A stretch of DNA of 21,907 bases from a virus: positions 1 to 21,907 of IMG/VR virus record IMGVR_UViG_3300020187_000254, one strand, 5' to 3'. Every line of letters begins with the position of its first letter. Within the stretch, counting starts at the first letter, position 1. Below, one piece after another: positions 1 to 21,314 of this stretch. A program made the position numbers and the translations under genes. The notes under the pieces were generated by a model. That model was not told the DNA's origin. It saw only the letters and a list, made by a program, of their open reading frames with translations, and ran no database searches.

Positions 1-3000
1 CTCACCCCAGTAAACATTTTTTCCAGTTTCATAACCATAAACACCCGAAACACTTGCATGACCTGATTCGTGAGGAATTCTCCAGTAGGTAGTACTTCCA
101 TCAATTCTTAAAGGAGGAGTTGTTACATTAATGTAATCTCCACTGCCCCCACCGTATGCGCTTGTTGCTGTAATAGCCCCACTAGAGATAGTTCCTATGT
201 TGGTTAGGTTTCTACTAGAGTCTATGACCTCCGTAAGAGAACCGCCCATCATTAACCCACCTGAGTTTATAAGAACTCCAGTAGAGCGAGCTTGGAATAT
301 TGTTGCACCACCAATTAAAAGATTTACCGCTCCCGATGCATTTAAATCTGCCGAAACACTGTCAGAACCAAGATCAAGATAAGTGTTATTGGTAGCACTG
401 CTGTAAAGTATCCTTGCCTTCATATCAAGGGTTGTTTCAATATTACTATTGCTATCAAGAGTGCCTGTCAGGGTTCCACCCGCTTTCGGCAATGCGGCAT
501 TGGCTGTAGTGTTAGCTGAGTTAGCGGTGTTAGTTGTAGTAGTTAATATTCCATCCCTTGTAGATATGTCTACTCCATCTACGGTTCCAGTTACGGTAAT
601 GTTGCCACCTACATCTAAACTGGGTGTAGTTAGCTTGTGGCTGAAATCAAACTTGTCGTTAGTTGAGTCCCACAAGATTGTCGCGTTAGTTGTGGAATTA
701 ACCGCATCCTGAATGGTGATACCTGCACCGTTAGCATTCGCTGACGAATCGCCAGTAGAGTAATTTAAGGTAATGTTTTTATCTTTTACATTTAAATCAT
801 CAGTATCAACAGTTGTCGTTGTTCCTTGGACAGTAAGATTACCTTCAATAACTAAATTATCCTCGAAGGTATGATCGCCTGTAATGGTGCTGTCAAGGTT
901 TAGTGTAGCTACACCGCTTGTAGCGCCACCGTTTAGGTTGGTTCCTGCCACTACACTAGTTATATCACCTGTACCAGCCGCCTGAGTAATCTCTCGGTTG
1001 TTTGGGTCGTCATTTACAACAGTAAAACCAGTTGCTCCGTTATCTTTTATAGACAAAACACGAGGCCAATTATTCATTATGTTATTTAGTGTTGAGTCGT
1101 AACTTGTGTCTGTCGTTGACAATAAAACTCTAAAGTATACTGCCCCAGTTGCGTAGGTAGATGTGTTTTCAAGAACACGATCACCATCTGCGTTTAAATT
1201 ACTAACACTTGCATAATTGGTTATGTTTACTTCTGCTTGTGTTGCAAAGTTTGTTGTACCTGGGGGGACGTAAGCTGTGGACTCTACCAAGTAAGTCGTT
1301 GCTGAAGTACTGCCGCTTGTTACCTTTGTAAATGTTTGTGTCACTAAATCGCTAAATCCGCTTGTTCCAGATGTAGTTGATTTTTGTAATGCAAGCGTAA
1401 AGTTGTCTGGTATATCTGCAATGGCATCTGCTACTGAAGCCGCTGAACCGCCTGTAACTGACCCTGTAGATAAGCCAGAAAATAAGTTTGACGCTTTTAC
1501 GGTAATTGTAAGTGATGAGCTTGTTGTCAAATTTACCTTTAACGCATTTAGCCCTGTCCCAGTTAAATTATAATTATTGCTAGTTTCAAAAACATTTACT
1601 CTTGATTGAGTGTTTGTCGCTATCTGGGAGTAAGCAAGGTCTGTAAAACCATCCGCGCCAAAATAGGCACTGGCGCTACCGTCCTGAAGATGCATACCCT
1701 TGGCTGTAAGCGTTCCATCTTTGTGGATTTTAAACTTAGCTGACTCAGGCGTAGAACTACCTACCCACAAACGATAATCAGAAGCAGTGCTTAAAGTAAT
1801 TGTGTCAGAACTATTAGTACCAATAGATATTTGCGGAGCAGTACCAGATACAGTTACCTCAGTTGCTTTTAACGCTCCACTTTTAGTAACAAAGAAAGGT
1901 GCAGAGGCTCTGTTGGCGAACGTATTACCTGCCCAAAACCGCACATCATCCGCGCTAGATGCAACAGAGGACAGCCCCATAGTGTTAGCGGCATCTTTTA
2001 GGTAAGTACCTGCAATGTCAAAACCGCCAATCTCGCCTGTATTGGCTACGATCTCACCACGAATAGTTGCTTCTTCAAATTCAACCGCACCGCTTTTTTG
2101 TATTTTCCAACCTGATGAACCAGAAGAATAATTTGTTGATTGCAATGTAGCGGCAATTTGATTAATTTCAACAGCTTCATCTGCAATTTGGCCTGTATCA
2201 ACAGCATCATCAGCAATCTGATCGGTATCAACAGCATCATCAGCAATTTGATCGGTATCAACAGCATCATTAGCAATGCCACCGACAGGAACTTGCGTTG
2301 TTGTCGCGTTAACAATGGAACTGTATACAGGGTTGCCAGAACCATCTTTTGTTGCATTGCCGCTATAATCAACAGACCTTAGCTTATAGTATCGGGTTAC
2401 TCCAACCGCTAGATTAGTATCAGTAAAGTTAGTTCCTGCACTTTTCCCGATTACGGCATAAGTACCACTAGAGGAAGTTGAGCGATAAACGTCAACGTGA
2501 CTAAAATCAGCAACAGTAGGATTAGTCCAATTAATAGTTATTTGTTCAAATTCACCACTTGCAGAAACAAGTGAGGGAGCAGATGGGGCGGTGGTATCAG
2601 TTGCAGCAGTTGGCGTTGCATCTCTTGTTAGACTTTGAACACCTAAACCATTAACAGCTTTTACGCGAACATTGTAGGACGCACCATCTTGCAAATTAGT
2701 TATTTGGAATGGAGACGTTCTTGTTGCTTGGGAAAGGTAATCACCTGACCCTGTTCTCCACTCAACTATGTAATGATCGACAAAGGCATCAACAGAGGCA
2801 GGCCAAGTAACGCTAAAATAAGGTCTGAATGTACCATCTTCACCCATATAGCTATCAGGGGCAACGGCAATACTTGCAGGTCTTTCGGTAAAGCTGCCGT
2901 CATATAGATCAACTTCACCTCCACCTAGAAAAACCTCTTCATCAGTAGAACTCCAATCCCACACAGAGGATGCGGTTTCTATTGCTTGCACATTAATAAT

Positions 3001-4470
3001 TATTTCACCAGAACTATCAAAACTTGTTGAATAGCCAGTAACCTCAAATACTTTTTGGCTATACCCAAGTCGAGCATTGGTAATATTAATATTATCGCCT
3101 ACGTTAAATCTTAAAGCAGACAGGTTACAAGCCATCGTAATAGCTTCTTGCTGCCTGGATCGCAATAAAGCAAGCCGCGCAAGTCTTTGAGCGCGTATGT
3201 TATTCACTGTTAAAGGCAGTGGCATATCAAGATAAATCTGTTCGTCATCTTCTGCTAAGAATAATGACGCAGTACCTGAACCTGATCCTGCTCCTGTTGC
3301 TGTAAAATTTAAACCAACGGTATTTGCAGACGCACCGATTGCCGTAAAGTCCGTTCCGTCGATAGTTAATATTTTATAGCGATCACCTGTAACAAAAGAC
3401 CCTGCTGTAGTTTTTGATAATTGTGCAGGGTAATCAGCTAAAACGTAGTTATCTTCTTCAGACAGAAACACGCCTTTTACTGCATTGTATCCGTTGCGTC
3501 TTGACTGTTTAGTTTGTACTTTAATTTCGCCAAGTATTTGTGATTCATCAATAGTTACCGTTGGCGCAACGTATTTACCTGCATGAATCTCAAATTTACC
3601 ACTAGCATAAATTAAACGCCCAGCCATCGAACCAACCATTAATTCAATGTTTGATTTTAACGAATCGCCAGTATCAATAACTCCGTCTATCGTATAACGT
3701 GGCTGAGTCCCACCTGCGGCTAGAGCGACAGTCTCATTACATACGCCAAAAGCGGTGTTGATAGAAGCAATATTAGATGCCGACTCGCCTAAACCATACT
3801 TAGTGTCAGTTAAATAATCTCTTAAACACAATGCAGGGTTCTGCGACCATACAGGAGAGGAGTTATTAGGATGCCAAACCTTTTTGCCGCGTACCACACT
3901 AGAGATATTTGGCAGACCTTGGGCAAATTTCTCTTGGTCATAAGTTAGCTTGACCACCATGTAAGCGGTATCGAGTAGTATATGATTAGATGTCCATTTT
4001 GTAGATGCGTTATCTAAGCCTGAATCTACTGTTGTTTGATTACCTAAATGGAAACTTAAATCAACATAAGGTGAAGTGCTTGAATTTCCATTCGTAGCCC
4101 AAGCTGATGTGAAATTACCACCACTCCAAATCTTTTCATCGTTAAACCAGACTTCTTCATAGGCATCTATCTCATGCCCTGCAATCGCAGTAACCAACCA
4201 GAGGTATTTGTTATCAGTGCCAGTAGATTCAAGGTAGACAACATTGCCGCCCACACGCGCACGACCATAAATAATTTTGCGAGAGGATGCTGCATCTCTG
4301 GTCATTACAGATCGGCCACCCATTTGAGCGCCTAAATCTAGCTTTGGCGTTAAAGCGCGCGTGATCATCGACATACCAGCAACAATGCCAAAAGCTAACC
4401 AGCTAAACGCCCCTGTCACTATAGCCGTTGATGCGCCCGCTACAATTCCTGCAATTAACGATAGTGCCAT
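1..4470 (-). CDS. J-like tail tip / central fibre protein, partial (3' end outside window)
   Basis: An open frame of 1490 codons starts at ATG 4470, a few bases after the GNAT stop codon, and runs off the left edge without a stop. It probably forms the tail tip and contacts the host receptor. Residues 2-38 are hydrophobic (MALSLIAGIVAGAS start). Residues about 45-500 resemble the N-terminal and hub part of gpJ-like proteins. Two fibronectin type III-like domains follow (about 530-720), then four 10-residue repeats (731-770). A segment of the type GWKIQKSGAVEFEEATIRGE (about 785 on) is typical of phage tip proteins. The distal part (about 1190 on, with NLTVQGTTTTVDTDDLNVKD) matches the style of marine and cyanophage fibres, and a glycine/serine/threonine-rich fibre region follows. 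Family assignment rests on architecture and order after the tape measure; the tip function is inference. The receptor-binding C-terminus is not in the window. Confidence 0.85.
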   Translation of the reverse strand, partial: MALSLIAGIVAGASTAIVTGAFSWLAFGIVAGMSMITRALTPKLDLGAQMGGRSVMTRDAASSRKIIYGRARVGGNVVYLESTGTDNKYLWLVTAIAGHEIDAYEEVWFNDEKIWSGGNFTSAWATNGNSSTSPYVDLSFHLGNQTTVDSGLDNASTKWTSNHILLDTAYMVVKLTYDQEKFAQGLPNISSVVRGKKVWHPNNSSPVWSQNPALCLRDYLTDTKYGLGESASNIASINTAFGVCNETVALAAGGTQPRYTIDGVIDTGDSLKSNIELMVGSMAGRLIYASGKFEIHAGKYVAPTVTIDESQILGEIKVQTKQSRRNGYNAVKGVFLSEEDNYVLADYPAQLSKTTAGSFVTGDRYKILTIDGTDFTAIGASANTVGLNFTATGAGSGSGTASLFLAEDDEQIYLDMPLPLTVNNIRAQRLARLALLRSRQQEAITMACNLSALRFNVGDNINITNARLGYSQKVFEVTGYSTSFDSSGEIIINVQAIETASSVWDWSSTDEEVFLGGGEVDLYDGSFTERPASIAVAPDSYMGEDGTFRPYFSVTWPASVDAFVDHYIVEWRTGSGDYLSQATRTSPFQITNLQDGASYNVRVKAVNGLGVQSLTRDATPTAATDTTAPSAPSLVSASGEFEQITINWTNPTVADFSHVDVYRSTSSSGTYAVIGKSAGTNFTDTNLAVGVTRYYKLRSVDYSGNATKDGSGNPVYSSIVNATTTQVPVGGIANDAVDTDQIADDAVDTDQIADDAVDTGQIADEAVEINQIAATLQSTNYSSGSSGWKIQKSGAVEFEEATIRGEIVANTGEIGGFDIAGTYLKDAANTMGLSSVASSADDVRFWAGNTFANRASAPFFVTKSGALKATEVTVSGTAPQISIGTNSSDTITLSTASDYRLWVGSSTPESAKFKIHKDGTLTAKGMHLQDGSASAYFGADGFTDLAYSQIATNTQSRVNVFETSNNYNLTGTGLNALKVNLTTSSSLTITVKASNLFSGLSTGSVTGGSAASVADAIADIPDNFTLALQKSTTSGTSGFSDLVTQTFTKVTSGSTSATTYLVESTAYVPPGTTNFATQAEVNITNYASVSNLNADGDRVLENTSTYATGAVYFRVLLSTTDTSYDSTLNNIMNNWPRVLSIKDNGATGFTVVNDDPNNREITQAAGTGDITSVVAGTNLNGGATSGVATLNLDSTITGDHTFEDNLVIEGNLTVQGTTTTVDTDDLNVKDKNITLNYSTGDSSANANGAGITIQDAVNSTTNATILWDSTNDKFDFSHKLTTPSLDVGGNITVTGTVDGVDISTRDGILTTTTNTANSANTTANAALPKAGGTLTGTLDSNSNIETTLDMKARILYSSATNNTYLDLGSDSVSADLNASGAVNLLIGGATIFQARSTGVLINSGGLMMGGSLTEVIDSSRNLTNIGTISSGAITATSAYGGGSGDYINVTTPPLRIDGSTTYWRIPHESGHASVSGVYGYETGKNVYWGE
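2161..2280 (-). repeat. Four tandem 30-bp units in the tail tip gene (10-residue repeat)
   Basis: Four in-frame 30-bp units encode GIANDAVDTD, QIADDAVDTD, QIADDAVDTG and QIADEAVEIN, followed by QIA. The first three are nearly identical at the DNA level; the fourth has drifted. Alternating hydrophobic (I, A, V) and acidic positions suit a trimeric fibre stalk. They sit between the second fibronectin-like domain and the distal fibre region, so they probably act as a linker or stalk. Unit number may vary by recombination. Confidence 0.9.
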
Positions 4471-8328: not shown

Positions 8329-9003
8329 AATTATTAATCTCTTGAGAGTGTAAAGCGTCTAAAACAGTAATAGCCTCTACCTCAAATGACGAAAGTTCAC
8401 CATAAATCTGCATATAAGCAGTAATTTGAGGATAAGTAATACAATCTGGCGCAGAATTTTTTAGTGCGACAAAAATAGACCACAAATATATTAATTTTGG
8501 GTCTAACTTGGGCGCATCTTCTAATTCTTTGGGTTTTTTACCAATAGACTTGGCAACTTGATTAAGATTATCAATACGACTGACTTTTGAGCCTTTATCA
8601 TAGCCACGCGACCAAAATTGCCACTTGGCATACTTAGATAGCTCATTAATCAGCCTTTGATAAAATTTTTCCGGTCGGACACAAACGCATCAATTTGACT
8701 TGCGACACTAGGGGCATTAACGTACAAATCTCTAGCGGCTTCTGGCGAGAAAGGTATTTCTTTTTGCCCTTGAGACAGTCCACGCCATGCTTTAGTAATG
8801 GCAACAATTAGATCAATTTCACCACCCTCTTCTTCAGCAATCAACTTTCTATGATATGCCCTTACAGCCGTTCTATAAGCCTTAGAATCAACACCCTGAA
8901 TGGTTATATAGAAATCGGTTTCTTTGCCGTCTAAGGGGCTTACAATGCGTATTTCAGCCCCTTCCTCATGTGCGTCTACTGTATATAGCGTATTAATGTC
9001 CAT
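8321..9003 (-). CDS. Tail assembly chaperone, -1 frameshift product (G-T type)
   Basis: After the slippery site at 8668-8662 the -1 frame stays open for 113 codons, until TGA at 8323-8321, just past the tape measure ATG. Reading 114 codons in frame 0 and then the -1 frame gives a protein of about 227 residues; the joint reads DRKNF-YQRLINELSKYAKW. The T part includes SRGYDKGSKVSRIDNLNQVA and ends ALHSQEINNYG. It has no good start codon and ribosome-binding site of its own near its 5' end, and it exactly fills the 320-nt space between the short chaperone stop and the tape measure. Lambda gpG/gpGT and most siphoviruses make the same pair to coat the tape measure during tube assembly. The frame and site are seen; use of the frameshift is inferred from the family. 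Confidence 0.87.
8650..9003 (-). CDS. Tail assembly chaperone, short (G-type) form
   Basis: The 117-residue protein lies between the tube protein and tape measure, the standard place for the G chaperone. It is acidic and small (MDINTLYTVDAHEEGAEIRI), with IQGVDSKAYRTAVRAYHRK (about 36-54), a pattern seen in this family. Normal termination is at TGA 8652-8650. Its ribosome-binding site is the GAGG of TAGATCGAGG at 9019-9010, a dispersed copy of the repeat clustered near the holin. It is expected to be made in excess over the frameshifted form and to bind the tape measure before tube polymerisation. Confidence 0.88.
   Translation of the reverse strand: MDINTLYTVDAHEEGAEIRIVSPLDGKETDFYITIQGVDSKAYRTAVRAYHRKLIAEEEGGEIDLIVAITKAWRGLSQGQKEIPFSPEAARDLYVNAPSVASQIDAFVSDRKNFIKG
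8662..8668 (-). promoter_or_regulatory. Programmed -1 ribosomal frameshift site A-AAT-TTT
   Basis: Codons AAA-AAT-TTT-ATC near the end of the short chaperone frame contain the heptamer A AAT TTT, a canonical X XXY YYZ slippery site. It stands four codons before the frame-0 stop, and the -1 frame opens directly into the T domain. I see no strong stem-loop immediately downstream. Confidence 0.85.
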
Positions 9004-9008
9004 TTTAA

Positions 9009-9028
9009 TCCTCGATCTATGAAATTAC
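9009..9028 (-). repeat. Dispersed copy of the TAGATCGAGG element, acting as chaperone ribosome-binding site
   Basis: On the minus strand the tube gene stop TAA is followed by TTTCA and TAGATCGAGG, then ATTAAA and the chaperone ATG. GAGG is well placed as Shine-Dalgarno sequence. The 20-bp block agrees in 19 positions with the array unit at 19914-19933, including the adjoining TAA stop codon. Confidence 0.85.
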
Positions 9029-9936
9029 GCTGGTACGCGAGTAATTTTGATTTGTGATGCATCGCTAGAGTTATAGAGAGCAACAAAATCTAAAGTTACT
9101 GTAATTGCTCCAGGGCCGCTAACTTCAGGGTTGCCAGAGTTATACTTTACTTTAGGTAACAGCACGATGTAGTCATTGCCAGCCGCATCAGTCAACGTAA
9201 ACTGTATTGCAGATGTAGTTTCAGCAACAAACTTGTCTAACAAGGTTGTATTTTCAAAATAAGCAGTAACAGAACCTGTAACGCTTGATTTACCAATAGA
9301 CGGTAAAAGCGTGTCAGCAGAGCCAACAACATAAAGTGCTTCCATACCGTTATCAATGTTTAACTCAAGTGCAGTAATAATTGCGATTGCTGAACCACCT
9401 TCAGTGATTGAACCTGAAAAAGAGTCAAAAGGTGCGGTTGTAGATTCAGCACTGTAAGTAGCACTACCTAATGCAGAGCCTGATGTTGTAAAACCAGAGC
9501 CAATAATGCCAAATGAGCCAGTTACCATTGAATTTGGCGCAACAGATAGCGACATTGTGTTAAATTGACACCCTGTAGAACGCAAATACTTACCAATATC
9601 TTGATGGTGACGCTCAACAGTGTAGCTTCTACGTGTTGTGCCAGCTTTTAGGACGTGTGTAGCCCAAGAACCGCACAAAGTAGCTTCTAAAAGTGCATCT
9701 AAACCGCCATAAGACAGTTCAAAGTTAATATCACCCGTTACAGACTTGTTTCCATGTCTAAAATGGGCAACCTGTCGATCTTCACGCAATTCTTCTGACT
9801 CAACTGCATCTTTTGACAGACCTAAAGTTGTTCCAGTGTGACGAATTGGCGTAAATGAAGGATTAGTTGGAGTTGTTCCAAATGTTGCTTCAACAACATA
9901 GGATAGATTGTGGCGTGAGCCAGTAGCGATAGTCAT
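9025..9936 (-). CDS. Major tail tube protein
   Basis: The 303-residue product is beta-rich, with alternating Ser/Thr/Gly/Val, and lies between the tail terminator and tail chaperones as expected for the tube subunit. The N-terminus (MTIATGSRHNLSYVVEATFG, then TPTNPSFTPIRHTGTTLGLS) is typical of one phage tail tube family. GDINFELSYGGLDALLEATL (about 73-92) and the C-terminal NPEVSGPGAITVTLDFVALY (about 269-288) also match the family style. Hexameric rings of this protein should stack around the tape measure. The ribosome-binding site CGAGGT lies in the last codons of the upstream gene. No extra Ig-like domain is visible at the C-terminus. Confidence 0.88.
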   Translation of the reverse strand: MTIATGSRHNLSYVVEATFGTTPTNPSFTPIRHTGTTLGLSKDAVESEELREDRQVAHFRHGNKSVTGDINFELSYGGLDALLEATLCGSWATHVLKAGTTRRSYTVERHHQDIGKYLRSTGCQFNTMSLSVAPNSMVTGSFGIIGSGFTTSGSALGSATYSAESTTAPFDSFSGSITEGGSAIAIITALELNIDNGMEALYVVGSADTLLPSIGKSSVTGSVTAYFENTTLLDKFVAETTSAIQFTLTDAAGNDYIVLLPKVKYNSGNPEVSGPGAITVTLDFVALYNSSDASQIKITRVPA

Positions 9937-11130: not shown

Positions 11131-11593
11131 GCTTCACCATCTTCGATCTATGGGTTAATTTAGCTAACTTGGTATCGACAGCCTTTAAAAAAGTCACGGC
11201 TCTAGCTTGTTGGGCATATTCAACCTCTAAGCTGCCAACTTTCTCTTTTACTGTCTCTCTTGCTTGATTATCAAGTGGATCAACGCCAGCACCTACGGCA
11301 ATAGCGGTTTCCATTTGAGCATCTTTTAATAATTGGGGGATTTCGTTATTTTCAATGTAATAGTTGTTGACCATTACGCCATAACGGGGCCACATAAGGG
11401 CTTGCGCTTCTGTACCCTTAGTACCTAAAAAATCTTTACTTTCTATGTAATCCATCGCACGAATTAGCAATACAGCCGCAGTTCCAGTGACCGTAAGACC
11501 TCGATCTGATGCATAGGTAGCTAACTCAGCCTCACTCGCATAAGAATTAGCAGTAGTAGAGCCTGAACCTGTTTCAACGACGATTGTTGCCAT
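11123..11593 (-). CDS. Head-tail adaptor, annotated in many phages as 'DnaT-like ssDNA-binding' protein
   Basis: Translation probably starts at ATG 11593 (MATIVVETGSGSTTANSYAS), preceded by TTGAGGTT; eight extra codons upstream lack a site and would run into the terminator. The 156-residue product carries the N-terminal pattern ETGSGSTTANSYASEAELAT and AAVLLIRAMDYIES (about 37-50), which I associate with a phage family often labelled DnaT-like. Its place right after the coat gene argues for a connector adaptor rather than a replication role. The gene comes immediately after a terminator, so its level may be lower than that of coat. Confidence 0.75.
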   Translation of the reverse strand: MATIVVETGSGSTTANSYASEAELATYASDRGLTVTGTAAVLLIRAMDYIESKDFLGTKGTEAQALMWPRYGVMVNNYYIENNEIPQLLKDAQMETAIAVGAGVDPLDNQARETVKEKVGSLEVEYAQQARAVTFLKAVDTKLAKLTHRSKMVKRV

Positions 11594-17339: not shown

Positions 17340-17443
17340 TGGACGCTTTAGCTATTGCCTTATCTTTCAGTTTTTTAATTATGGCGGCTTTATCGTCGCT
17401 TATTCATCTAGTAAACAAATACTTTAAAGGGGTAAACAAATGA
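17339..17443 (+). CDS. 34-residue single-pass membrane protein
   Basis: A short frame, MDALAIALSFSFLIMAALSS followed by LIHLVNKYFKGVNK, starts in a TAATG overlap with the gene before and ends in an ATGA overlap with ardA. Residues 3-24 form one hydrophobic helix, followed by a basic tail, so it should be an inner-membrane peptide with the C-terminus in the cytoplasm. The tight coupling on both sides argues that it is real. Function unknown; superinfection exclusion or a membrane helper is possible. Confidence 0.7.
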   Translation: MDALAIALSFSFLIMAALSSLIHLVNKYFKGVNK

Positions 17444-17934
17444 GCAATATTACTTACCACAGTCTGTCGGATTACGTGGGCGGCAAATGCATTAGCAAAA
17501 CTTTTGAATTAGATCACGTTACTTTTGAAGTTCATCAAGAAGAAATTAGCGAGTGGCTAACCTCTATCACTAAAGAGCGCAAAGATGGAGAAATCCGCGA
17601 AGAATGGATTGTCTGCGATTATGAAGATATACCGCACGAATATGTCGGAGAATACCACATTGATGAGTCTTTTTTTCACCTTATGTCAGCTATTGACAAC
17701 TCTCATTACGACGCTGAAGTTTTCCACGCTGGCGTTTCTCTCGGTCTTAGTATCGAAAATATTGAAGATAACTATTTTGGTTATTTTTCCGATGAAACCG
17801 AATTGGGCGAAATGTGCGCGGATGGCTTAGAAATTCCCGACAACATTCAGCCTTATTTTGACTATGAAGCATACGGGCGCGCTTGCTCCTATGATTTCAT
17901 GGAATCCGACGGCCACTATTTCTTTAACCATTAA
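17440..17934 (+). CDS. ardA: ArdA-type antirestriction protein (DNA mimic)
   Basis: The 164-residue length is that of ArdA (about 165). The N-terminal SLSDYVGGK (8-16) corresponds to the family's LxxYNxGxL. The signature region follows: ENIEDNYFGYFSDETELGEM (106-125) and EIPDNIQPYFDYEAYGRACS (131-150), ending in DGHYFFNH. The composition is extreme, with 37 Asp/Glu against 7 Lys/Arg, as needed to mimic the charge of B-form DNA. ArdA dimers occupy the DNA groove of type I restriction-modification enzymes and block restriction, often also methylation. ATGA overlap with the membrane peptide gene and AAAGGGG serve its start. The early position fits the need to act soon after DNA entry. Family membership is recognised from motifs; activity is not shown. 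Confidence 0.9.
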   Translation: MSNITYHSLSDYVGGKCISKTFELDHVTFEVHQEEISEWLTSITKERKDGEIREEWIVCDYEDIPHEYVGEYHIDESFFHLMSAIDNSHYDAEVFHAGVSLGLSIENIEDNYFGYFSDETELGEMCADGLEIPDNIQPYFDYEAYGRACSYDFMESDGHYFFNH

Positions 17935-19561: not shown

Positions 19562-19750
19562 ATGGAAAACGAATTTATTAGGGAGGCGCGTTTTAAGTTG
19601 CGCCTGACACAAGAAGAACTAGCGAACCAATTAGGCTGCACTAAACAAACGATACATTTTGCAGAATCAGGCAAACGGGACGCAAAAATCACGTTACTGC
19701 TAGCAATTGAATGTTTATTAAGACGCGCTGGCAAATGGCCTATAAATTAG
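19562..19750 (+). CDS. XRE/Cro-type helix-turn-helix regulator
   Basis: The 62-residue protein is little more than a single HTH_3 domain: RLTQEELANQLGCTKQTIHF (about 14-33) contains helices 2 and 3, with Q-T-I-H as the recognition part, and LLAIECLLR closes the fold. Small XRE proteins like this (Cro and DUF-like regulators) dimerise on operator DNA. As last gene of the cassette it could repress the promoter at 17025-17053 or bind the repeat array that begins 26 bp after its stop. Both are inference. Confidence 0.85.
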   Translation: MENEFIREARFKLRLTQEELANQLGCTKQTIHFAESGKRDAKITLLLAIECLLRRAGKWPIN

Positions 19751-19775: not shown

Positions 19776-19924
19776 ACCTCGATCTAGCGGCAAATTTTGC
19801 CTTTTTTCGTACCCACCTCGATCTAGTGGCAATCTTGCGTGCCTGTAAACTACCTCGATCTAGCGGCAAACCACCTCGATCTATTAAAGCACCTCGATCT
19901 AGCGGCAACGTGTACCTCGATCTA
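19776..19924 (-). repeat. Array of six direct repeats, TAGATCGAGGT
   Basis: The plus-strand sequence ACCTCGATCTA occurs six times without mismatch, at 19776, 19815, 19852, 19873, 19891 and 19914 (start to start 39, 37, 21, 18 and 23 bp). Four copies (1, 2, 3, 5) continue G(C/T)GGCAA, giving an 18-bp unit; copies 4 and 6 continue TATTAAA and TATGAAA. Every unit holds GATC and TCGA, and the 18-bp type also CTAG. The array lies in the 179-bp space between convergent operons, with T-rich DNA at its left side. Possible roles are replication-origin iterons, binding sites for a phage repressor or the neighbouring XRE protein, or a packaging site. Regular spacers of CRISPR type are absent. No known phage site with this sequence comes to mind. 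Confidence 0.95.
19789..19807 (+). terminator. Second terminator, built on the first array unit
   Basis: GGCAA-ATT-TTGCC followed by TTTTTT on the plus strand. The left arm GGCAA is the end of the first 18-bp repeat unit. With the terminator at 19738 it stops plus-strand transcription before the minus-strand lysis genes; nothing comparable faces the other way. Confidence 0.6.
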
Positions 19925-19929
19925 TGAAA

Positions 19930-20097
19930 TTACTTGCGCTTAATTACATCTTGAACGGTTTTGCTTTCATATATGCGAATGCCTAACCAAATAATTGTAA
20001 AAAGACTTGCTGTTGGCGGCAACCAAGTAGCTAACGACATGATACCAGTGCTTGCAGCGGCTATATCAATCAAATCTTTGTCCTGATTATCCAACAT
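19930..20097 (-). CDS. Holin, small single-helix type
   Basis: The 55-residue frame starts at ATG 20097 inside the end of the endolysin gene (11-nt overlap, ATGTTGGATAA). An acidic N-terminus (MLDNQDKDLIDIAAAS) precedes a hydrophobic stretch (about 18-42, SLATWLPPTASLFTIIWLGI within it) and a charged end RIYESKTVQDVIKRK. This WLP...IWLGIRIYE..TVQ pattern is common in small holins of marine and T7-like phages. It would form the inner-membrane lesion that releases the endolysin. No spanin gene is seen next to it. Its stop is followed by TTTCA and the first array unit. Confidence 0.78.
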   Translation of the reverse strand: MLDNQDKDLIDIAAASTGIMSLATWLPPTASLFTIIWLGIRIYESKTVQDVIKRK

Positions 20098-20545
20098 AAG
20101 GCTCACCGAAATCCAAGGAGTCTGTATCAAACAGAATCGCCTCACACCTCCGTCTACGAGTCAGCCCTGCTAGGACTTTACCGCTTGCCTTGTCCCATCT
20201 TACGATTTGCTCAGATACTTTGTCGTACTTACCTTCGTTTAACACTTTAAGCAACGTACTCGATCTTAAATTTCCACACCCTAAATTAAACGTCCATGAC
20301 AAAATCGCATCCCATTGATGCTGATTTAGTTCAACAGTCACAAGGCTTTCAACCTGAGATTCTATTTCTTCAATATCTTGTATAAGCAATTCATCTGCTT
20401 TTTCTTGAGAAATCTCACCGTTTTCGATCACATTTCTTGTGTGACCCCAACCCCAGGTTAAAACACCCCCAGCGCATTCGTAGGCTTTAAGTTCACAGCC
20501 CTCAAAATGCTTAATCAGGTCTAAACCTGCTGCGGAAGTTTTCAT
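20087..20545 (-). CDS. Endolysin, T4-type lysozyme (GH24)
   Basis: The start at ATG 20545 (MKTSAAGLDLIKHFEGCELK) gives 152 residues that begin exactly as GH24 lysozymes do. Its AAGG site is only 2 nt away, and an in-frame GTG at 20626 would add 27 residues of no family character. Catalytic Glu is E15 (HFEG). Thr is T30 and His is H35 in TWGWGHT, matching T26 and H31 of T4 lysozyme. The position of the catalytic Asp (T4 D20) is Cys24 (AYECAGG), as in some other phage lysozymes. DAILSWTFNLGCGNLRSSTL (about 79-98) and RWDKASGKVLAGLTRRRRCE (about 116-135) complete the fold. No signal peptide, so it needs the holin encoded next. Confidence 0.93.
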   Translation of the reverse strand: MKTSAAGLDLIKHFEGCELKAYECAGGVLTWGWGHTRNVIENGEISQEKADELLIQDIEEIESQVESLVTVELNQHQWDAILSWTFNLGCGNLRSSTLLKVLNEGKYDKVSEQIVRWDKASGKVLAGLTRRRRCEAILFDTDSLDFGEPYVG

Positions 20546-20724: not shown

Positions 20725-20753
20725 ATTAAATCATATTTTTGATTGACTGTCAA
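20725..20753 (-). promoter_or_regulatory. Sigma70 late promoter (pR'-like)
   Basis: TTGACA (20753-20748), a 17-bp spacer and TTTAAT (20730-20725) on the minus strand give a near-consensus promoter 27 bp after the Q stop. Q-binding elements of lambdoid phages lie between -35 and -10; the spacer here has AATCAAAAATATGA. Confidence 0.85.
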
Positions 20754-20780: not shown

Positions 20781-21314
20781 TTACCTCAATCTATTAAATA
20801 TTATGTGATTAATTGTTTCATCTCTTTCAGAATGTTTACTTTGCAATAATGCAAACCGTTTTTTCCATACTTTTCTTGATTGAAATAACGTTACACCTAA
20901 TATTTTAGCCAAATTTCTTTCGCTTACTGTTCGATTGCCAAGTCCGTTACAAGCGCCACAAATTTCAACTTTTGACATTAGTTTTATCTCGCCAACCCCT
21001 TTACATCGTTTGCACTTATAGGGGTTTATAGCAACTTCTAAGGCCGCAAGCGCAAGAACCGCAACCGTTCTATTAGTTTCCTCTTTATTAAGCTTAAAAC
21101 CGCACTGAATGGCCTCTTTTACGGCAAGTGCGTTCAACTCTGCCCTACTGTTGTTGTCTAAGGCAAACTTGCTCAAACTATACAGATACGTCAACCTATC
21201 AAGACCTGTTAAGCAAGCCGCTATATCTTGCGATGTCAGCCTACCTAGCCCCGTCGATCTAACTGAATCCATTGGTGGAGCGCCTGGAGCAAGCATTGCC
21301 ATCAACTCACTCAT
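20781..21314 (-). CDS. Q: Late antiterminator Q
   Basis: I start at ATG 21314 (MSELMAMLAPGAPPMDSVRS), which overlaps the gene before by 8 nt (ATGAGTGA), giving 177 residues; lambda Q has 207. Two CxxCxGxG knuckles, CKRCKGVG (101-108) and CGACNGLG (119-126), form the zinc-binding site of Q. The C-terminal part (WKKRFALLQSKHSERDETIN, 150-169) matches lambda Q in layout (W..TVKPLYDALVVQCHKEES). The helical stretch NRTVAVLALAALEVAINPYK (81-100) precedes the knuckles as in Q. Q loads on RNA polymerase paused near the late promoter and lets it pass terminators. The promoter and terminator found right behind the gene support the call strongly. The last codons (AATAGATTGAGGTAA) contain a diverged copy of the array repeat. 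Confidence 0.88.
   Translation of the reverse strand: MSELMAMLAPGAPPMDSVRSTGLGRLTSQDIAACLTGLDRLTYLYSLSKFALDNNSRAELNALAVKEAIQCGFKLNKEETNRTVAVLALAALEVAINPYKCKRCKGVGEIKLMSKVEICGACNGLGNRTVSERNLAKILGVTLFQSRKVWKKRFALLQSKHSERDETINHIIFNRLR

Follow-up and report, generated by a model that had tools for sequence, protein, structure and literature searches.

What does a ten-base sequence do when it stands once within a phage tail operon, where it can serve as a ribosome-binding site, and again in an array behind a holin-like gene? The sequence is TAGATCGAGG. The window, that is the whole stretch of DNA analysed here, comes from IMG/VR as a linear virus fragment 21,907 bases long.

The window contains seven exact copies of TAGATCGAGG, all of them on the minus strand (9010-9019, 19777-19786, 19816-19825, 19853-19862, 19874-19883, 19892-19901 and 19915-19924). 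The lone copy at 9010..9019 lies between the TAA stop of the gene for the tail tube protein (Phage_tube_2; 9025..9936, minus strand; PF18906, E=5.6e-62) and the ATG of the tail assembly chaperone (8650..9003, minus strand; phrog_313, E=1.3e-16). Its GAGG is at Shine-Dalgarno distance and serves the chaperone start, the junction reading GAGG-ATTAAA-ATG, a good Shine-Dalgarno arrangement.

The other six copies form an array with short modules between them (19777..19924, minus strand; starts at 19777, 19816, 19853, 19874, 19892 and 19915). The copy at 19915..19924 (minus strand) follows the stop of a holin-like gene (19930..20145, minus strand; named by position and size, without a family match) as TAA-TTTCA-TAGATCGAGG. 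The last gene of the convergent operon, encoding a 62-aa HTH_3 protein (19562..19750, plus strand; PF01381, E=5.9e-9), ends 26 bp from the array. Direct comparison bears out the original prediction that the blocks after the tube stop and the holin stop differ in one base, as TCCTCGATCTATGAAATTAC (9009-9028) and ACCTCGATCTATGAAATTAC (19914-19933) agree at 19 of 20 positions. The array, although outside the block on which that prediction centred, forms the bulk of the phenomenon. The convergent small-gene operon also encodes an anti-restriction-like protein (phrog_14321; 17440-17934, plus strand).

When up to two mismatches are allowed, TAGATCGAGG has 30 matches in the window, compared with 10.8 ± 3.4 in shuffles, and none of 100 shuffles reaches 30. 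With one mismatch there are five copies, at 11141, 11499, 14009, 20784 and 21252, all five on the minus strand. Thus, the weaker copies that had been listed earlier do exist, at slightly corrected coordinates, but not all of them count, because the one at 11499 sits where a coding sequence is conserved: in six contigs of the sister clade (tube ~77% identical) the matching codons contain exact TAGATCGAGG, and the tube junction has none. The copy at 20784..20793 (minus strand), which reads TAGATTGAGG, falls within the final codons of the Q-like gene; it is identical in L001, L002, L003 and L005 and absent in L161, L164 and L168. Behind the Q-like gene is a likely late promoter, TTGACA-17-TTTAAT (20725-20753, minus strand), conserved in L001-L003 and L005. 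As had been claimed for the opposite strand, GATCGAGG is absent from plus (0) and occurs 9 times on minus.

Viral contigs were scanned with the endolysin, the tube protein and the DNA pattern, which yielded 173 loci. The family consensus, TAGAYCGRGG, has 146 copies in 25 representative contigs, all on one strand per contig (146:0). Read backwards it occurs once in these contigs, and 300 letter permutations of it have a mean of 1.0 and a maximum of 15 occurrences, making the enrichment ~146-fold. Both the strand bias and the excess, for which the original prediction had proposed a whole-genome scan, are therefore clear. Among 30 related records searched with TAGAYCGAGG, none has both orientations. 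The left flanks of the element are of few types (TTGCCRC, TTTAA and TTTCA), and the base 3′ of it is T in 124 of 136 copies in a 23-contig set. No named phage has the array by blastn, the best tube and terminase relatives being <60% identical, and tube alignment against genome_contigs found no relative. Rfam had no match in the window, L249 or L161, and no tRNA was found in nine sources.

According to open reading frame (ORF) maps of the relatives, copies follow the holin and the tube gene, precede the DUF7936 gene and flank a small basic ORF (MGYKK...) that ends the late operon; in some relatives, copies are also found at the start of Q. In L188, copies also lie around the HNH gene near the integrase, among minus-strand genes and in the same genome orientation; in L182 and L190, the SSB gene contains a pair of elements in antisense, reading PRSSSQPPRSSSQ, at the linker that precedes the DDDIPF tail. 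Because the local genes at these SSB and int/HNH copies run opposite, the orientation of the element follows the genome, not local transcription. One strand throughout was expected and is seen, but the copies are not confined to late transcription.

The small ORF is lysine-rich (MGYKK..KPK..KK) and lies between two elements (L174 3284-3362; L161, reoriented, 3462-3552; L256, reoriented, 3156-3246), and a remnant of it occurs in Porticoccaceae genomes too. In L174 3372-3600 and L161 (reoriented) 3555-3800, short direct repeats flank a tRNA-like stretch (ACCGATCATA or ACTGGTCAAA); differing with the integrase type, these repeats are likely integrase arm sites.

When 19 arrays were compared side by side, the modules between elements were seen to be drawn from a common pool that includes TTGCCAC, TGCTTTAA, TACACGTTGCCRC, TGGTTCGACCTGGC and others, and the payloads to include whole ORFs (CsrA-like, HNH and others). 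One slot, with constant flanks on both sides, is empty in L165, L169 and L173 and elsewhere holds one of four payloads, namely a 139-aa ORF (L161 and L172), a 76-aa ORF (L162, L171 and L168), a 122-aa CsrA-domain protein (L167; PF02599, E=2.8e-15) or a 141-base stretch (L164). The 122-aa protein (L167 1125-1574) has its CsrA domain at residues 75-121, and its N-terminal half is CsrA-like by eye.

Homology between phages stops at the right edge of the element (+9..+14) in 47 of 138 elements versus 0-16 for shifted windows, and begins at the left edge in 35 of the 138 versus 0-9, where related contigs share events and the top shifted values probably come from neighbouring array copies. In bacterial copies, homology stops at the right edge in 19 of 42 elements versus 0-2 for shifted windows.

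The bacterial copies belong to Porticoccaceae. When bacterial genomes were scanned for paired elements, the one convincing match was a Porticoccaceae MAG (UBA4026); paired-pattern matches in distant bacteria of genome_contigs (L206, L207, L209 and L210) were judged to be chance or coding repeats. The exact 12-mer CTAGATCGAGGT is found in 25 of 112 Porticoccaceae genomes, nearly always in 1-2 copies. It is multi-copy in a few, within islands, where the copies share one strand at the spacing of genes (in G065:C16, eight copies fall within 6.7 kb) and head promoter-driven gene cassettes. The island repeat is ~48 bp long, has a sharp right edge after TAGATCGAGGT, and is absent from viral contigs in this bacterial form. 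Read on the other strand, 22 of 24 copies consist of CCTCGATCTA, 8 nt, TTGACT, 16 nt and TATGAT, a promoter-like pair directed toward the cassette gene; in 17 of the 24, an ORF starts 46-164 nt from the element edge. G064 and G065 have common cassettes in different order, the change coming directly after the element. An empty chromosomal site was sought for L254, and homology stopped 58 bp before the element. Because phage end-remnants (L255, L256, L260 and L217) are present in the same element-bearing genomes, Porticoccaceae is, judging from MAGs, probably the host family of these temperate tailed phages. Among the literature results listed, none reports the motif or such cassettes in Porticoccaceae/SAR92.

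We conceived that TAGAYCGRGG is a polar junction element where cassettes are gained, lost and exchanged, and our confidence in this stands about halfway. The element would be a seam between DNA blocks, both in the temperate tailed phage clade and in the Porticoccaceae islands, with crossovers occurring in it or at its edge. The genomes directly show that phages and bacteria share the element, its fixed orientation, the modular arrays, the several payloads of one slot and the homology breaks at its edges; that exchange at the element produced the seams is inferred. Because of where the crossovers would fall, units of payload plus element could be gained, dropped or rearranged without ever changing orientation, and because the copies are direct repeats, exchange would preserve that orientation. 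The fixed genome orientation, even at the antisense SSB and int/HNH copies, agrees with direct-repeat exchange. The agent may be either short-homology annealing of the phage ERF type or a site-specific recombinase. ERF-family annealing acts on short homology, and these phages encode an ERF annealing protein (PF04404).

Several points count against the junction element. Ten bp is short for ordinary homologous recombination, and the model lacks an account of how the element arrives at new places such as the tube junction and the SSB linker. The bacterial breaks may stem from exchange anywhere within the 48-bp repeat or from repeat-to-repeat alignment. In addition, two observations at the promoter-like pair and at the tube junction of the sister clade lead to the main rival.

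According to this rival, the element is a binding site of a phage or host regulator, as a stoperator-like roadblock, an operator or a titration array, and repeat exchange is a by-product. We find it possible but rather unlikely. The fixed 8 nt to TTGACT-16-TATGAT, with an ORF start not far beyond, agrees also with a regulator site; the element is asymmetric, in one orientation and mostly near stop-start junctions, and a 17-bp spacing recurs. At the tube junction, where the element-bearing clade has the element, most relatives of 74-78% tube identity have a GC hairpin instead, in many cases with a T run, and this suggests a possible role of the junction in transcription. However, with up to one mismatch the immunity switch, placed from HTH genes without mapped early promoters, has no copy in four phages (L161, L174, L175 and L177) and one 1-mismatch match in a fifth (L176). 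Moreover, phage copies lack an adjoining promoter, two sites are antisense to local genes, and payload edges coincide with element copies.

The same findings weaken the likeness to stoperators that had been suggested before. Cluster A mycobacteriophage stoperators are asymmetric 10-13 bp sites in one orientation at short intergenic places (PMC3029335, PMC9283540), and our element is likewise asymmetric, one-way and mainly intergenic. But stoperators, at which the bound immunity repressor stops elongation, are used as operators at promoters near the repressor switch, where the element has almost no copy, and they are oriented with local transcription, whereas the element is antisense in SSB (L182 and L190) and at int/HNH (L188), and its sites bound modules.

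It is also conceivable, though doubtful, that crossovers at TAGAYCGRGG belong to a dedicated cassette-shuffling system, neither IntI/attC nor phage att, that is common to Porticoccaceae islands and temperate phages and ferries cassettes between hosts in fixed orientation. Integron attC arrays resemble what we see, being tandem small-gene cassettes of accessory genes with same-direction repeats, shuffled as gene-plus-repeat units with exact borders, so that homology breaks at the repeat edge. On the other hand, the integron integrase (TIGR02249) exceeds the cutoff in 0 of 8 Porticoccaceae genomes. The conserved core here is TAGATCGAGGT, with no GTTRRRY in the conserved stretch, and there is no conserved hairpin, AGCCC/GGGCT arms not being kept across copies (by eye). 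Also unlike integrons, the bacterial cassettes carry their own promoter-like pair, and phage modules go down to 7-8 bp.

Tyrosine integrases adjoin some arrays, and their homologs elsewhere lack the element. The element was also considered as the att core of a P4-type integrase: it directly adjoins the 3′ end of close homologs in L281, L288 and L285 (variant in L289) but not in L282, L283 and L284. Because it adjoins only some close homologs, it is not the fixed att site of that integrase, and the first cassette simply follows. In G051:C4 (L311), 936-3759 contains two different divergent tyrosine integrases, with the element and the first cassette gene behind the rightward one.

That the element has no function of its own and, as a neutral or selfish repeat, spread through slippage and unequal exchange seems quite improbable. 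Identical tandem modules (a 27-bp unit in L170) and very short modules, such as TTGCCAC and TGCTTTAA, would be produced in this way. Such spread accounts poorly for a core that is near-exact in 146 copies with variable flanks, and for the same junctions being retained over 84-100% tube identity.

The ribosome-binding role, from which the question arose, was examined by listing the junctions of 27 element-bearing relatives (84-100% tube identity) and counting them by hand. The element at the tube-chaperone junction is kept across these relatives, often as two copies next to a separate Shine-Dalgarno sequence: 12 of the 27 have the window-like GAGG arrangement, and 15 have 1-2 copies (some degenerate) upstream of a separate TAAGG or AGAGG nearer the start. 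Overall, the relatives come close to the pile-up of gene-junction elements that the original prediction offered as an alternative. In several phages the last copy is 6-7 nt before the ATG of the chaperone, the DUF7936 gene or the MGYKK small ORF. By sequence, the element contains the Shine-Dalgarno core GAGGT, which pairs with 16S rRNA, and the spacing is good in ~12 contexts; copies landing just before an ATG therefore double as Shine-Dalgarno sequences, as at 9003 in the window. However, an ATG lies 3-10 nt downstream in only 15 of 125 distinct contexts. Given this count and the 15 relatives with a separate Shine-Dalgarno, ribosome binding, which had been assumed from the copy serving the chaperone, is real at some places but secondary overall, a side effect at a few.

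A start-associated translation element, with the motif as an extended Shine-Dalgarno sequence and the array as its relic, is thus very unlikely, especially as TAGATC has no pairing with 16S rRNA and bacterial copies read away from the gene that they stand before. The start-associated sequences of Cluster K phages are asymmetric repeats with a Shine-Dalgarno core, in one orientation and without a palindrome (PMC3203893). Our element shares with them the core, but nearly all of them stand 3-7 bp ahead of a start codon, compared with ~1 in 8 here, so the likeness suggested earlier fails in its near-universal feature.

A hairpin, attenuator or attC-like role in RNA is also unlikely, because the element folds no better than shuffles (fold z of 0.56, -1.64, 0.78 and 0.58 at element junctions, 0.16 for the array), unlike the sister-clade junction hairpins (three examples, z near -3). 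Most sister-clade phages (L108-L142) have such a strong hairpin, in many cases with a T run, behind the tube gene, and the element-bearing clade lacks it.

A genome-polarity signal (Chi-like or packaging/segregation-like), required in one direction along phage DNA, would explain an orientation set by the genome and not by the local gene, but is highly improbable with copies that are clustered rather than spread and, in Porticoccaceae, not broadly frequent, the multi-copy cases being islands.

For the polar junction element, the closest known system in function is the boundary (linker) sequences of lambdoid phages, short conserved sequences at module borders that were proposed to permit module swaps by general recombination (PMC3029335). 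As there, a short conserved sequence here lies exactly at the borders of exchanged modules; the differences are that a single 10-bp sequence recurs at ~8 places, that its orientation is strict, and that it also occurs in arrays and bacterial islands.

Thus, a ten-letter one-way sign marks the swap seams of a marine phage family and heads gene cassettes in Porticoccaceae. Payload swapping between copies and the presence of the same element in the cassette islands go beyond what was first noticed. The seams themselves would arise by exchange at the element, through ERF annealing or a recombinase as candidates. The role of short conserved linkers in phage mosaicism has been disputed for decades, because at most borders no such linker can be detected. 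In this clade the linker is visible, repeated, polar and common to cassette islands of the likely host family, which makes the linker idea testable. If a dedicated enzyme is involved, the system would resemble integrons without belonging to their family.
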